Source: Clostridiales bacterium
GTDB taxonomy: Bacteria > Bacillota > Clostridia > Lachnospirales > Lachnospiraceae
Length of the DNA stretch: 61,209 nt
Direction: 5' to 3'
NCBI GenBank assembly: GCA_021199255.1
Contig: JAJQIK010000022.1
Location: forward strand, 1-61,209
Shown: positions 21,912 to 36,092 of the stretch, one piece after another
Numbering within the stretch: position 1 is the first letter of the stretch
How the letters are laid out: the number at the start of each line of letters is the position of its first letter
Position numbers and translations under genes: made by a program
The notes under the pieces: generated by a model
Seen by the model: the letters and a program-made list of their open reading frames with translations, nothing else
What the model was told of the DNA's origin: nothing
The model's database searches: none

Positions 21912-22226
21912 AAATTCTCCATAACAGCCATCTATGTCCTACGCGTAACGGCTTATTTCTCTATCGCTATAACAGTCCGCATATCCTTACATCAGAGCAA
22001 ATGATGATGCACTACGCTTTATCATATACCTATGCCGGGCATTTGGCAAATATGTTTCCGCCATCTGCTATGCAAAAACTGCACCCAACAGGAACCTATA
22101 TCGTCTATTTTACTGTATAACGGCTGCCCACCGCAACCTGACGAAGACTTTTTCTTTAAATTTTACCCTGAAAACGCGCTTCTCATTCTGTCCTCATATC
22201 CTCATCGCCTTTCCTCGCCCTGCTTT

Positions 22227-22239
22227 CGAACATTTGTTC
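22227..22239. promoter_or_regulatory. LexA-type SOS box (R2 copy 1)
   Basis: CGAACATTTGTTC fits the Gram-positive LexA/DinR core GAAC-N4-GTTC and differs by one base from the Bacillus consensus centre ATAT. No full-length gene follows it on either strand; on the minus strand a purine run and ATG follow, but the frame closes after four codons. Confidence 0.55.
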
Positions 22240-22258
22240 TGATATCAGGATACAGAAA

Positions 22259-22284
22259 ATGGAGTCCCATATTTCGGACTCCAT
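22259..22284. terminator. Hairpin after the cysteine desulfurase gene (R2 copy 1)
   Basis: A perfect 9-bp stem (22259-22267 with 22276-22284) with an 8-base loop. On the minus strand it is followed by four T and lies 18 bases after the cysteine desulfurase stop; on the plus strand a run of five T follows after four bases. A bidirectional terminator is plausible. Confidence 0.65.
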
Positions 22285-22301
22285 CCTCATTTTTATAAAA
22301 A

Positions 22302-23471
22302 TCAAAGATTTTTCAGCTTATCTTCCCACAACGGCGACATACTGCGCAGCCTGTCCACAATGACCTTCAGCTCCTCCACCACCGTATCCATTTCTTCCCT
22401 GGTATTTTCTTCGCTCAGGGTCAAACGCAGAGAACCATGGGCTTTTTCATGAGGAAGCCCGATGGCGAGCAGCACATGGGAGGGATCTAACGTTCCCGAT
22501 GTACACGCAGAGCCGCTGGACGCGCAAATTCCCTTCATGTCCAGCATAATCAGCAAGGACTCCCCTTCAATATACTCAAAGCTGAAATTAATATTATTAG
22601 GCAACCGCTTAACCGGATGACCGTTGAGCTTTGCATAAGGTATTTCCTTTTGAATCCGGCTGATAAGATAATCCCTCAGTTTGATTTCCTTCCGGGTTTT
22701 TTCCTCCATAATCCGAAATGCGCGCTGTGCCGCTGCCGCCATACCCACGATCCCCGGCACATTCTCCGTACCCGCGCGTCTGCCTCGCTCCTGCTGCCCG
22801 CCATGTATAAAGGAACGAATCCTGACTTTCTTGTCAATATAGAGGAACCCGATTCCCTTCGGCCCGTTTAATTTATGTCCGCTTGCGGAAAGCAGGTCAA
22901 TGTGCAGCTCCTTCACGTCGATAGGAAGCTGCCCATACGCCTGTACCGCGTCCGTGTGGAATAAAATACCATGCTTGGCCGCGATTTTACCGATTTCCTG
23001 CATAGGCTGAATAGTACCGATCTCATTATTGGCATACATAACCGAAATCAATATGGTATCCGGGCGGATCGCTCTCTCAAGCTGTTCTAAATCAACCACC
23101 CCATTTTCATCCACATCAAGATAAGTTATTTCCGCTCCCTGCTTCTCCAGATACTCGCAGGTGTGCAGTACGGCATGGTGCTCGATTTTGGACGTAATAA
23201 TATGGTTTCCCTTATTCCGATAGGCTTCATAGACTGCCTTCAATGCCCAATTATCGGATTCCGAGCCTCCCGCGGTAAAGTAAATCTCATTAGGCTCAGC
23301 CCCAAGCGTCTCCGCAAGGATTTCCCGCGCCTCAATAGTAGCTTTCTTACTCTCACTGCCTAATTTATAAATACTGCTGGCATTTCCATAATACTCTGTA
23401 AAATACGGCAGCATCGCCTCAACTACCTCCGGGGCTGTTTTGGTTGTCGCTGCATTATCCAAATAAATCAT
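22302..23471 (-). CDS. Cysteine desulfurase, NifS/IscS type
   Basis: A protein of 389 residues, a PLP-dependent enzyme that takes sulfur from cysteine for Fe-S cluster or thio-nucleotide synthesis. PLP Lys200 is in SASGHKLNGPKG and the persulfide Cys323 is in SSGSACTSG; the N-terminus YLDNAATT is typical. GGAGG precedes the ATG. The usual clostridial partners (NifU scaffold, MnmA, ThiI) are not adjacent: the gene stands alone with its own promoter, between two R2 repeats. Which acceptor it serves cannot be told here. Confidence 0.93.
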   Translation of the reverse strand: MIYLDNAATTKTAPEVVEAMLPYFTEYYGNASSIYKLGSESKKATIEAREILAETLGAEPNEIYFTAGGSESDNWALKAVYEAYRNKGNHIITSKIEHHAVLHTCEYLEKQGAEITYLDVDENGVVDLEQLERAIRPDTILISVMYANNEIGTIQPMQEIGKIAAKHGILFHTDAVQAYGQLPIDVKELHIDLLSASGHKLNGPKGIGFLYIDKKVRIRSFIHGGQQERGRRAGTENVPGIVGMAAAAQRAFRIMEEKTRKEIKLRDYLISRIQKEIPYAKLNGHPVKRLPNNINFSFEYIEGESLLIMLDMKGICASSGSACTSGTLDPSHVLLAIGLPHEKAHGSLRLTLSEENTREEMDTVVEELKVIVDRLRSMSPLWEDKLKNL

Positions 23472-23644: not shown

Positions 23645-23746
23645 CTAATGCTCCAGATAATCCCTATAATCCGTTTCACTTGCAAACAACATATAAACGC
23701 CGTCCACATATCCCATATATCCGCTCTCTACTGTATATCCTTTCAT
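23645..23746 (-). CDS. 33-residue small protein, possibly SOS-controlled
   Basis: A short frame of 33 codons (protein begins MKGYTVESGYMGYVDGVYML and ends ETDYRDYLEH). It has an excellent ribosome binding site: the purine run AGGAAAGGAGAT lies just before the ATG. The protein is rich in Tyr and Gly at the front and acidic at the end, without a signal peptide or membrane helix. From memory it resembles tiny proteins that recur in Lachnospiraceae genomes with a GYMGYV...YMLFASE...DY pattern and no known function; I cannot verify this here. A LexA-type box lies 34-46 bases upstream inside R2 copy 2. No clear -35/-10 pair was found. It is the only recognisable gene between cysteine desulfurase and blaI. 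Confidence 0.65.
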   Translation of the reverse strand: MKGYTVESGYMGYVDGVYMLFASETDYRDYLEH

Positions 23747-23779
23747 ATCCTGATCTCCTTTCCTCCGGCTTGCCGTGTT

Positions 23780-23792
23780 CGAACTCTTGTTC
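23780..23792. promoter_or_regulatory. LexA-type SOS box (R2 copy 2)
   Basis: CGAACTCTTGTTC retains the GAAC-N4-GTTC core of Gram-positive LexA sites. It is placed between the hairpin and the ribosome binding site of the 33-residue gene, where repressor binding could block transcription. Functional assignment is inferred. Confidence 0.55.
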
Positions 23793-23811
23793 TGATATCA
23801 GGATACAAAAA

Positions 23812-23837
23812 ATGGAGTCCCATATTTCGGACTCCAT
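23812..23837 (-). terminator. Hairpin with U-tract (R2 copy 2)
   Basis: Identical 9-bp stem and 8-base loop to copy 1. On the minus strand six T follow immediately; on the plus strand TTTTTT follows after five bases. No gene ends here on the minus strand, so it may insulate the small gene from read-through or travel as part of the repeat. Confidence 0.6.
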
Positions 23838-23959: not shown

Positions 23960-24328
23960 ATGAACAAAATATCAGATGCGGAATGGAAAATTATGAATTT
24001 GTTATGGGATACGCAGCCCAGAACAATGATGCAAATAACCAAAGAATTATTTGAGGAAACGGGGTGGAGCAAGCACACGGTAATAACCTACCTGAAGCGA
24101 ATGGAAAAAAAGAAAATCATTCATTACGAACAAGGAGAAAAAGCCAAATTATATTATACGGATATTAGCAGGGAGGAGGCAATTGTAGAGGAAAAGAGCA
24201 ACTTTTTGCATAAAGTATTCCGAGGAAATGCAGGACTGATGATTGAAACCATGCTGGAACAGGAAGGCTTTTCCGACGAGGAGATTGACCGTCTGATTGA
24301 TTTGCTGGAGAAACGGAAGGGGGACTGA
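23960..24328 (+). CDS. BlaI/MecI-family transcriptional repressor
   Basis: A protein of 122 residues with the N-terminal winged helix of the BlaI/MecI/CopY family (ISDAEWKIMNLLWD, then the recognition region TVITYLKRMEKKKII) and a C-terminal dimerisation part. In this family, cleavage by a partner BlaR1/MecR1 protease relieves repression. AGGAGG lies before the ATG. It is followed after 2 bases by a BlaR1-like gene, the standard pairing, and probably represses its own operon. No beta-lactamase gene is adjacent, so the regulated function is probably not classical resistance. Confidence 0.93.
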   Translation: MNKISDAEWKIMNLLWDTQPRTMMQITKELFEETGWSKHTVITYLKRMEKKKIIHYEQGEKAKLYYTDISREEAIVEEKSNFLHKVFRGNAGLMIETMLEQEGFSDEEIDRLIDLLEKRKGD

Positions 24329-24330
24329 AC

Positions 24331-26385
24331 GTGGAAGTGGTCAGGTTCGGAATTTGCGTATCAGGCATATTGGCTATCAGAAAAGCAGCCTGGGGATATA
24401 TTTCAAGAAGATTACAATATTCCTTATGGATATTAGCGCTTATATTCCTTCTTTTAAATCCTGTATGGAATATTACAAGCAGATTCAGTATTGAAAATAT
24501 ATTATTTAATATTGGAAATATTACAGAGGCTCAATTAGACGATGGGCTCTTATATGCAGACAACGTACCGGATTATGCGGACGGTTATGCGGAAGGTTAT
24601 GGAACAACGGAATTGTCCCAACCGTATGCTGTCCTGGATTCAGAAATGGCGAAAAGCTATGACGGGCAAGCGGAAAAAGAAAATGGAAGGATTTTTGTCC
24701 TCTATTGTTTGGAAGCATATTGGCAAAATATAAAATGGGTCGTATCCTTTATGATTTTGAGTTACCTTTTACTTTCCAACGTATCTTTTTATATATGGTG
24801 CAGGAGGAAAAGATGTTTTTATAAGCGAGAGGAACAGACAGGACTTGCTGTTTATCTGTTGAAAAATATCAGGACGCCCTTTCTGTTCGGAAGGACTATT
24901 TATATAGACGCCGACATGGCCGCTGACAGCAAAATGCTGCGTCATATGATCACGCATGAATATTGTCACTATAAGCATTTGGACTATGTGTGGGTCTGGC
25001 TGCGGGGGGTGTGTTTTGCCCTGAATTGGTATAATCCGTTTTTATGGGTAGCAATAGAGTTTATGAAAAGAGATTGTGAGTTGGCCTGTGATGAAGCGGC
25101 GATAGCGGTATTGGGTGTCGCCGGGCGAAAAGAATATGGATATACCTTATTAAAGATAGCAGGTAAAAGGAAAGCGAAAGCAATATCTCTGACCGCAACC
25201 ACTTCTATGAACAGCAATTTTAAAAGACTCAAAGAGAGGATTCTTATGATTTCAAGGGAAAGAAATACGAGCGCCGCAGTAACGGTTCTTGTAATGATCA
25301 GTATGCTTCTTTTAGCTGGCTGCACATTTACACGCGGGGAACAAATGCACAATACTAAAACGGAAGAGACAACGGAAGCGAGTATGGCGGAAATAGAAAT
25401 GCCGAAGGAAACAGAACCTGCAAGCGTATCTGAGGATATGGATGTGGCTGCCATTCGGACAGCACGGAGTGATGATACAAGCAATATTGTCTATAATTCC
25501 GTAAAATATTATGATGGATATTTTTATTTTGCTGACAGCCAGAACCTCAAAAGAATAGATAAAGAATTGGCGAAAGAAGAAACGTTGGCGTATGGTAATG
25601 TAAAATTAGGTAATTGTGACGGTGATTTCATTTATTATATCAGATACGCGTCTGATACAAACGGCGTTCCGGGTATTCTGCGGTTAAATTTAACCAATTT
25701 GGAAGAGGAACTTCTGGTTGAATGGTCTGACCAGATGTGGAGCTGCACGAATATATACGAAACTGAAAATATAATTTATATAGAAGGAAATCAATACTGT
25801 GACGCATATCGATTAGAAAACGACATGTCCGGTATAAAGGATTTCGCCATGGAAGAAACCGATCATGAAATTTATAAGAAAATGGAACAATGCGGTATTG
25901 CGCGGGAAAAGATCAATGCCTTTGCGGCAGGTTATTGCAATGCGATGTTCCAATATCATAAATTTGTATATCTGGACAGAAATAATGAAAAAATTATCGT
26001 CTATGATACGGATTCAGGAGAAGCCATAAGCGAAATTGAAAATTGCGGCAGCGACGTTCTGCTGACCGAAAACGGGCTGGTATATAAAGATTCAGCCTCC
26101 AATATTTATTTCCGCAAATGGGAAAACAGCGATTCGGCGCTTCTTTATGATATAGACAAGAATAATGGCCTTATGGTAAATTACGGTACCTATGACGATC
26201 AATATATTTATGGATTTTATGAAGATAACGGGGGAAGCACTCTGGTCAAAATATCATGGACGGGGGAATGTAAGAAAGATAAGTTTTTTCAGAATGAAGG
26301 AAGGGCTGTGAACTTAGGATTTAGCGTTAATAATGGCATAAGAAGTTATTGGCAGAATGGGCATATTATCTTTGAGGGTGTGTAA
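24331..26385 (+). CDS. BlaR1-like M56 metallopeptidase with a novel C-terminal sensor
   Basis: A protein of 684 residues. Residues 1-310 match the integral membrane M56 domain: N-terminal helices, HEYCH (209-213, zinc site with catalytic Glu210) and ELACDE (250-255, third ligand). After a last membrane segment (about 314-330) comes an extracellular part of some 350 residues. Classical BlaR1 has a penicillin-binding domain there with STxK/SxN/KTG motifs; these are absent. Instead the tail shows repeated blades such as YYDGYFYFADSQNLKRI and GDFIYYIRY, like a beta-propeller (DUF5050-like). The signal sensed is unknown. Start is GTG 24331, two bases after the blaI stop, with a GGAAGGGGG site. The gene is visibly more AT-rich than its neighbours. 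Confidence 0.85.
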   Translation: MEVVRFGICVSGILAIRKAAWGYISRRLQYSLWILALIFLLLNPVWNITSRFSIENILFNIGNITEAQLDDGLLYADNVPDYADGYAEGYGTTELSQPYAVLDSEMAKSYDGQAEKENGRIFVLYCLEAYWQNIKWVVSFMILSYLLLSNVSFYIWCRRKRCFYKREEQTGLAVYLLKNIRTPFLFGRTIYIDADMAADSKMLRHMITHEYCHYKHLDYVWVWLRGVCFALNWYNPFLWVAIEFMKRDCELACDEAAIAVLGVAGRKEYGYTLLKIAGKRKAKAISLTATTSMNSNFKRLKERILMISRERNTSAAVTVLVMISMLLLAGCTFTRGEQMHNTKTEETTEASMAEIEMPKETEPASVSEDMDVAAIRTARSDDTSNIVYNSVKYYDGYFYFADSQNLKRIDKELAKEETLAYGNVKLGNCDGDFIYYIRYASDTNGVPGILRLNLTNLEEELLVEWSDQMWSCTNIYETENIIYIEGNQYCDAYRLENDMSGIKDFAMEETDHEIYKKMEQCGIAREKINAFAAGYCNAMFQYHKFVYLDRNNEKIIVYDTDSGEAISEIENCGSDVLLTENGLVYKDSASNIYFRKWENSDSALLYDIDKNNGLMVNYGTYDDQYIYGFYEDNGGSTLVKISWTGECKKDKFFQNEGRAVNLGFSVNNGIRSYWQNGHIIFEGV

Positions 26386-26410
26386 AAGTAGTAGAAAGGA
26401 AGAAAAAATT

Positions 26411-26812
26411 ATGAAAAAAATATTTAAACTGTTTATTACATCATTGCTTGTTATATCAATGACCACAATAACAAGTTTTGCAGCAGAAAAACAAGAAACT
26501 AGCAGTAATATTCCGGCGCAGATTGAAGTAGAAGGAGGAAAATTAATTCTGGTTAATACAGAATCGGATTTATCAATGACTAAAGGGATTGCAAGATATC
26601 AATATCATGTAATTACTGATGGGAGTAATCTTAATGTGAGAAGTGGTCCCGGTACGAATTATTCAATTATTGGACAATTTAAAAATGGACAAGTTATAGA
26701 TGTCAGTTTTACTCAGGAGTCTGGCATCGCCCCTTGGGTATATGCCGGGGGAATTGATGCAGTTACCGGCAACTATATAAACGGATATATACATAGTAAT
26801 TATTATGGATAA
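26411..26812 (+). CDS. Secreted SH3-domain protein
   Basis: A protein of 133 residues with a Sec signal peptide (about 1-24, ending SFAAE) and a single bacterial SH3 domain near 70-133, recognised by LNVRSGPGTNYSIIG and a following GYIHSNYY segment. SH3b domains bind cell-wall peptides. There is no enzymatic domain. It follows the BlaR1-like gene by 25 bases with a purine-rich site, so it is probably the third gene of that operon and a likely output or accessory of the sensor. Confidence 0.85.
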   Translation: MKKIFKLFITSLLVISMTTITSFAAEKQETSSNIPAQIEVEGGKLILVNTESDLSMTKGIARYQYHVITDGSNLNVRSGPGTNYSIIGQFKNGQVIDVSFTQESGIAPWVYAGGIDAVTGNYINGYIHSNYYG

Positions 26813-36016: not shown

Positions 36017-36092
36017 TTGACGCCCCGCAGGCGGAACGTCTGTTCGTTATTCCGTTTGTGGCAGTTTGCCTATTTCCTTTTGAAAATCTCTA

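Follow-up and report, generated by a model that had tools for sequence, protein, structure and literature searches.

A 33-residue microprotein family of Lachnospiraceae with a multiply constrained promoter that shares an element with recA

The 61,209-nucleotide stretch of DNA analyzed here (the window; contig JAJQIK010000022.1 of Clostridiales bacterium, Lachnospiraceae, assembly GCA_021199255.1) encodes a 33-amino-acid microprotein that represents a real new family, with a promoter that is unusual and under several constraints (Table 1); tight control of its gene in response to DNA damage is probable. Control by DNA damage is suggested by two features of the sequence: a promoter element common to this gene and recA, and a LexA-like box. 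For the overall model, in which a soluble beta-beta-beta-alpha microprotein would be kept off until DNA damage by a WYL activator, LexA and a lock in the leader, we consider the chances to be about even. The promoter core, the lock on the ribosome site and a broken second copy are features beyond those of a first-pass annotation of this DNA.

Table 1. Features of the microprotein locus and its second copy, in window coordinates.
Feature	Position	Strand	Basis or remark
33-codon microprotein gene	23645..23746	minus; ATG 23746, stop 23645	homologues, pN/pS, AlphaFold
Shine-Dalgarno region and 3' hairpin arm, ATCAGGATATG, running into the start codon	23747..23770	minus	covarying pairing
LexA-like box GAACAAGAGTTC	23781..23792	. 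(read 23792-23781)	starts at predicted +2; PWM 15.1
Predicted transcription start, A of CAGAAC	23793	minus	placed by its spacing from the -10
-10 element TATCCT, which doubles as part of the anti-Shine-Dalgarno arm	23800..23805	minus	fixed core-TAnnnT spacing
Dyad ATGGAGTCC-N8-GGACTCCAT	23812..23837	minus	GGAC at 23820-23817; core common to recA upstreams
Broken second copy: dyad, box GAACAAATGTTC, ribosome site, ATG	22183..22305	minus	leader repeat
nifS-type cysteine desulfurase between the copies, neighbour only	22302..23471	minus	NCBIfam TIGR03402, 590.5 bits

Translation from the ATG gives MKGYTVESGYMGYVDGVYMLFASETDYRDYLEH, preceded by a strong ribosome site (AAGGAG). The first-pass annotation had described a tiny frame with an excellent ribosome binding site, whose product had no known domain and resembled small proteins recurring in Lachnospiraceae, and in all of this it is borne out. 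Homologues were found by protein search in 78 of 145 genomes, the organism's own included, and in 73 of the 77 genomes of its genus; a profile search at the level of the order found the microprotein in 41 of 392 genomes. Scanning named genomes yielded 111 relatives (80 kept), with titles that are mostly Lachnospiraceae. No Pfam or NCBIfam family matches the microprotein, a PHROGs search gave a best value of 0.025 (in one member), and the PDB held nothing convincing, either by sequence or by fold. Codon-level conservation, which the annotation had proposed as a check, is that of a gene under purifying selection (median pN/pS 0.15–0.21 in pairwise comparisons among 102 distinct coding sequences).

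Residues K2, G3, Y4, G9, M11, G12, Y18, L20, F21, E24, and Y27 are invariant among 25 diverse members, and the AlphaFold model, for which an alignment of 25 diverse members was supplied, is a compact beta-beta-beta-alpha fold (pLDDT 95.6; predicted elements E4-6, E9-14, E17-21, and H24-32). A hydrophobic membrane-spanning stretch is absent from the sequence as judged by eye, unlike in type I toxin peptides. Our guess, held at low confidence, is a soluble binding protein that acts as a transient brake. Relatives at 50–71% identity occur on four viral contigs (L231, L232, L233, and L234) and in two unannotated phage records (MT836628 and MT836271); the loci L231–L234 have neither the promoter core (3–4 mismatches) nor a LexA-like box. 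At L231, the relative lies just 5' of a gene that by eye resembles a DHH phosphatase, and at L161 a distant homologue is followed, 15 nt downstream, by a 116-aa gene that appears by eye to be HIRAN-domain-like.

In the window, the intact gene is divergent to a blaI/blaR1-like pair and lies upstream of the nifS-type cysteine desulfurase gene. At 23960-26812, in the interval between mfd and the microprotein gene, are genes for a blaI-like repressor, a blaR1-like peptidase and SH3-domain proteins. The second copy, situated just after nifS and just before an alpha/beta hydrolase gene, repeats the leader at 87% identity (22194-22305) and runs into a stop after four codons (MRTE); its box (22239-22228; PWM 20.4) is nearer to the genus LexA consensus than that of the intact copy. 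Among 84 loci, the ORF that comes next after the microprotein gene encodes an alpha/beta hydrolase in 41, and the next one upstream is mfd in 17 and nifS in 18 (35/84). Because the second copy lies between nifS and the hydrolase, the working copy seems to have been relocated ahead of nifS, and the old site broken.

Of 105 homologue upstreams, 68 have an exact promoter core (TATnGGAC-N11-TAnnnT) and 91 have it with at most one mismatch (250 nt searched), vs. 1 of 255 upstreams of neighbour genes (4 with at most one mismatch) and 1 of 2100 shuffled sequences (24 with at most one). L059, L152, and L160 were dropped at an earlier step (no ATG near the match), and the 105 upstreams are those retained from 136 rows after removal of L034 and L074 (7 nt upstream) and duplicates. 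In the leaders of distant genera, GTTTTATnGGAC-N11-TAnnnT persists where the box does not. A -35 element was judged by eye to be absent from the microprotein promoter, and the dyad of the window is followed by a T-run, so that it is also terminator-like.

Within 250 nt, the exact core is present at 28 of 31 recA loci and at none of 27 lexA loci; an element was found within 300 nt of recA at 29 of the 31 genus loci, and a pattern scan of the organism's own genome matched a site whose end is 86 nt 5' of recA. These recA and lexA loci are the best-scoring 30 of 72 and 30 of 67 genomes, respectively, with the own-genome locus added; among the 31 lexA loci, no motif was obtained from L208 or L227, and the upstream sequences of L212 and L226 were short. 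The recA copy of the element is 113–201 nt 5' of the start and, by eye, ahead of a separate promoter with TTGACA and a LexA box. The own-genome recA (C57, L165) apparently has two promoters, of which one carries the GGAC element and the other a pair of LexA boxes, CGAACATTTGTTTT and AGAACAGATGTTCT; such a pair is present at all 31 recA loci. The left half of the recA element is GTGTC or GGGATG, unlike the GTCC arm of the microprotein element. A 33-base matrix trained on the recA elements passes 43 of 105 microprotein upstreams, and the window's own fails; the whole-element matrix mostly fails because the spacer and the left arm differ. A longer pattern yielded 186 sites across 77 genomes vs. 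117 for the control, which is a modest enrichment, and many sites beyond the recurrent ones are therefore chance.

A third recurrent gene behind the element encodes an uncharacterized protein of ~120 aa with one N-terminal helix that looks membrane-spanning, recognized at 13 of 26 loci that had been hand-picked as likely. The own-genome copy of the element upstream of this gene is at C71:32482-32514 (L236); the protein is also encoded at L260, L281, L286, L288, L291, L292, L295, L300, L302, L303, L304, and L308. Its model has an alpha/beta domain (pLDDT 83.3), and from the yneA-like layout it is a candidate division inhibitor. At L309 there is a pair of LexA sites, and the ~120-aa protein was not recognized there. 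Elsewhere in the own genome (C87:7246-7278, L239), an exact GTCC-TAT-GGAC-TAnnnT lies shortly 5' of a gene that by eye resembles a DNA cytosine methyltransferase. The occurrence of the element on an uncharacterized membrane protein gene would also be consistent with a response to some other signal (general stress, growth phase) through another regulator, with recA and the microprotein gene merely sharing the element. We consider this improbable, given the element at 28 of 31 recA loci, the recA-like pairs of LexA sites at the membrane-protein loci L281 and L313, and one strong LexA site at L304.

The box GAACAAGAGTTC sits 34 nt 5' of the ATG, and the GAAC-N4-GTTC that the first-pass annotation had placed within 50 bases of the frame is indeed there. 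A lone GAACN4GTTC is no evidence, because the own genome (3.08 Mb) has 26 such sites vs. 42 for the reversed control pattern. Among the best-scoring 30 of 78 genomes matched, 29 loci have at least 100 nt of upstream sequence; GAACN4GTT[CT] is present in all 29 of these genus upstreams, and the strict form in 27. Over all distinct homologue upstreams, the strict box occurs in 64 of 105 vs. 0.27 expected from mononucleotide shuffles. The annotation had proposed counting how often a LexA box precedes homologues and had itself named homologues consistently lacking it as evidence against a small SOS gene: close homologues have the strict box at fixed promoter positions (58/67), whereas it is present in only 6 of 38 other homologues (neighbour genes, 6/255). 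In the sampled loci the strict box precedes recA in 31 of 31 and lexA in 24 of 29.

Relative to the predicted transcription start, the LexA-like box has two main homes in the 91 core-bearing loci: +1/+2 (46) and -57/-58 (14). A further six start at +7, three are strays between -147 and -157, and in 24 loci the box is missing. The spacer is RNNY in 54 of the 55 strict recA and lexA boxes fetched (20 distinct), which gives the genus rule GAAC-RNNY-GTTC. This spacer is found in 12 of 14 upstream-type boxes, 1 of 46 start-site boxes and 0 of 6 boxes at +7. Start-site boxes, including that of the window, are instead GAAC-ANNR-GTTC, one spacer base off the genus LexA rule; their flanks do not vary (A at -1, G at +12; 46/46, the flanks being outside the selection criteria), and in reverse they read CGAAC-YNNT-GTTCT, with genus LexA flanks and one base from the consensus. 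The window box scores 15.1 against a training range of 15.1–21.2, with flanks that fit and a spacer (AAGA) that breaks RNNY. When a matrix trained on recA and lexA was applied to the 26 strict sites of the own genome, the top-ranking sites were those of recA, the second copy, a repair radical-SAM gene, uvrB and a glycosylase-like gene, followed in sixth place by a site before a LacI-type regulator gene; the window box ties for ranks 7–9 with one site inside a coding frame and a site at window position 36034. The latter (36034-36045; PWM 15.1) lies shortly 5' of a 409-aa ORF that by eye is DnaD-like. The own genome encodes LexA (LexA_DNA_bind at C4:105050, E 2.2e-25). The LexA-type identity given to the box at first pass thus stands as to conservation and flanks and is weakened by the spacer, which departs from RNNY in 45 of 46 start-site boxes. 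LexA binding at the start-site boxes is likely, but not certain, because they have ANNR where the recA and lexA boxes have RNNY.

With the strict box at fixed positions in most close homologues, an upstream type that follows the genus spacer rule (12/14), and a start-site type that in reverse carries the genus flanks one spacer base off, the gene might be a plain SOS gene, with LexA as its sole controller in the own genus and GGAC-TAnnnT as a basal promoter, as in recA. The recA element could indeed be a constitutive promoter unconnected to damage, which counts against the damage model. We regard a plain SOS gene as unlikely, since the GGAC element is more widespread than the box (24 of the 91 element-bearing loci are boxless), lacks a -35, and by eye is kept on recA besides the LexA-box TTGACA promoter.

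The preferred model of joint control by an activator, LexA and the leader draws further on the leader itself. The stretch from -18 to -1, which is the -10 region, has the complement of the start codon and the ribosome site, and this complementarity covaries between species. Using 75-nt leaders, the median probability of ribosome-site pairing is 0.68 at microprotein loci (>0.7 in 47/103), vs. 0.36 for neighbour genes (35/186 above 0.7) and 0.12 for recA; when the leader is cut at the predicted start, it is 0.20 (>0.7 in 1/92), a drop that comes partly from the shorter leader. Folding energy is not discriminating and provides no evidence, because recA leaders also score z -2.4. Arms were swapped between species, leaving out 20 of the 105 loci (N, core with more than one mismatch, or short leader): the own duplex has -17.0 vs. 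-9.3 kcal/mol for swapped arms, and is in the best 10% at 71 of 85 loci (20/26 once similar arms were removed). The covariation is in -18..-1 (-14.1 vs. -8.5 kcal/mol; best 10% in 65/85) and hardly in +1..+17 (-3.9 vs. -3.6 kcal/mol; 19/85), and the arms of the dyad gave no covariation signal (-7.5 vs. -7.6; 17/85). This pairing should keep read-through mRNA from being translated: if the predicted start is right, the arm would be present on read-through mRNA alone and would silence it.

A covarying hairpin over the ribosome site and AUG would also be expected of a riboregulator leader, in which the transcription start is 5' of the dyad, and the dyad and Shine-Dalgarno hairpin constitute a cis RNA switch with the box in its fold; by eye, the preceding stop codon at L121 and L140 overlaps the dyad or directly borders it. 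The arm, however, coincides with the fixed-spacing TAnnnT hexamer common to recA, boxes at -57/-58 would fall outside the fold, and the window has no Rfam match at the gathering score. We therefore give such a leader little credence, and retain a lock that is embedded in the promoter.

As for the activator, the own genome encodes two WYL proteins (C12 and C73). A WYL gene adjoins the microprotein gene at 5 of 143 loci (upstream tandem at L142; divergent at L139 and L135; downstream tandem at L152 and L162) and is absent beside it at 138. The five adjacent WYL proteins are nearer to C12 (46–52%) than to C73 (38–43%), and WYL and WCX domains are present in all six proteins (these five and C12), with a helix-turn-helix recognized by Pfam in one. 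Class-A (WYL+WCX) proteins are described as common in Firmicutes (PMC6789036). A profile of the six proteins matches 127 of 392 genomes, comprising 36 of 41 with the microprotein vs. 91 of 351 without, a co-occurrence confounded by phylogeny and obtained with a profile built from microprotein-adjacent genes. From the gene neighbourhood, we infer a C12-type WYL protein as the putative regulator of the GGAC element.

Under the preferred model, RNA polymerase with the housekeeping sigma factor would use TAnnnT, and a WYL activator of the PafBC/DriD kind, triggered by accumulating single-stranded DNA, would bind the GGAC half-site or the dyad in place of the missing -35. In the own genus, LexA would block the promoter as well, such that both signals would be needed. 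Transcripts entering from upstream would carry the anti-Shine-Dalgarno arm and so not be translated, and mRNA from the gene's own promoter would start inside the hairpin and be translated. The peptide might then, as a guess, bind a replication, repair or division partner as a transient brake. More broadly, and as a tentative proposal that we hold to be somewhat less probable than not, there may be a second Lachnospiraceae damage regulon beside SOS, in which a WYL protein, reading GTCC-N8-GGAC or its GGAC half at the -35, would activate recA, the ~120-aa membrane protein and the microprotein, the last of these triply locked (by activator, LexA and anti-Shine-Dalgarno arm).

Several known systems resemble parts of this arrangement. 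Mycobacterial recA has a second, PafBC-dependent (RecA-NDp) promoter beside the LexA one, and the PafBC motif is tTGTCRgtg-N8-TAnnnT; didA is a small-protein target of Caulobacter DriD. Small genes of the LexA/SOS response include yneA, sosA, sidA, and tisB, and in the leader of the T4 lysozyme gene e, read-through mRNA hides the ribosome site. Once bound to ssDNA, PafBC is described as reprogramming sigma-A at -26-motif promoters (PMC11804915), and DriD sites (ATACGAC-N7-GTCGTAT) as overlapping a poor -35 at a constant distance from the -10 (PMC12340889). The GGAC promoter is like PafBC promoters in being a second recA promoter that has no -35 and a near -26 motif fixed to TAnnnT, with a putative WYL+WCX activator, but differs in its motif (TTTATnGGAC-N11-TAnnnT), in its host (Lachnospiraceae) and in a regulator proposed from gene neighbourhood. 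With DriD and didA it has in common an inverted repeat over a poor -35, a constant distance to the -10 and a small-protein gene, although the repeat here is GTCC-N8-GGAC. With a DNA motif that differs from theirs, the GGAC promoter may work like those of PafBC and DriD without necessarily belonging to either kind. Compared with the small SOS genes, there is likewise a short gene behind a LexA-like box, but the microprotein has no membrane stretch, and its box shifts in position and is confined to certain lineages. As for T4 gene e, read-through mRNA would hide the ribosome site, and mRNA from the gene's own promoter would start inside the hairpin; here, however, the -10 region itself would serve as the arm that hides the site, and the start is a predicted one.

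As major gut bacteria, Lachnospiraceae are exposed to bile, drugs and genotoxins. In the parts of the open-licence literature available to us, we found no description of a damage response other than SOS in this family. One element on both recA and a new microprotein family provides a direct handle on a possible second response of the PafBC/DriD type, and the anti-Shine-Dalgarno arm embedded in the promoter offers a testable case of translation tied to the right promoter.
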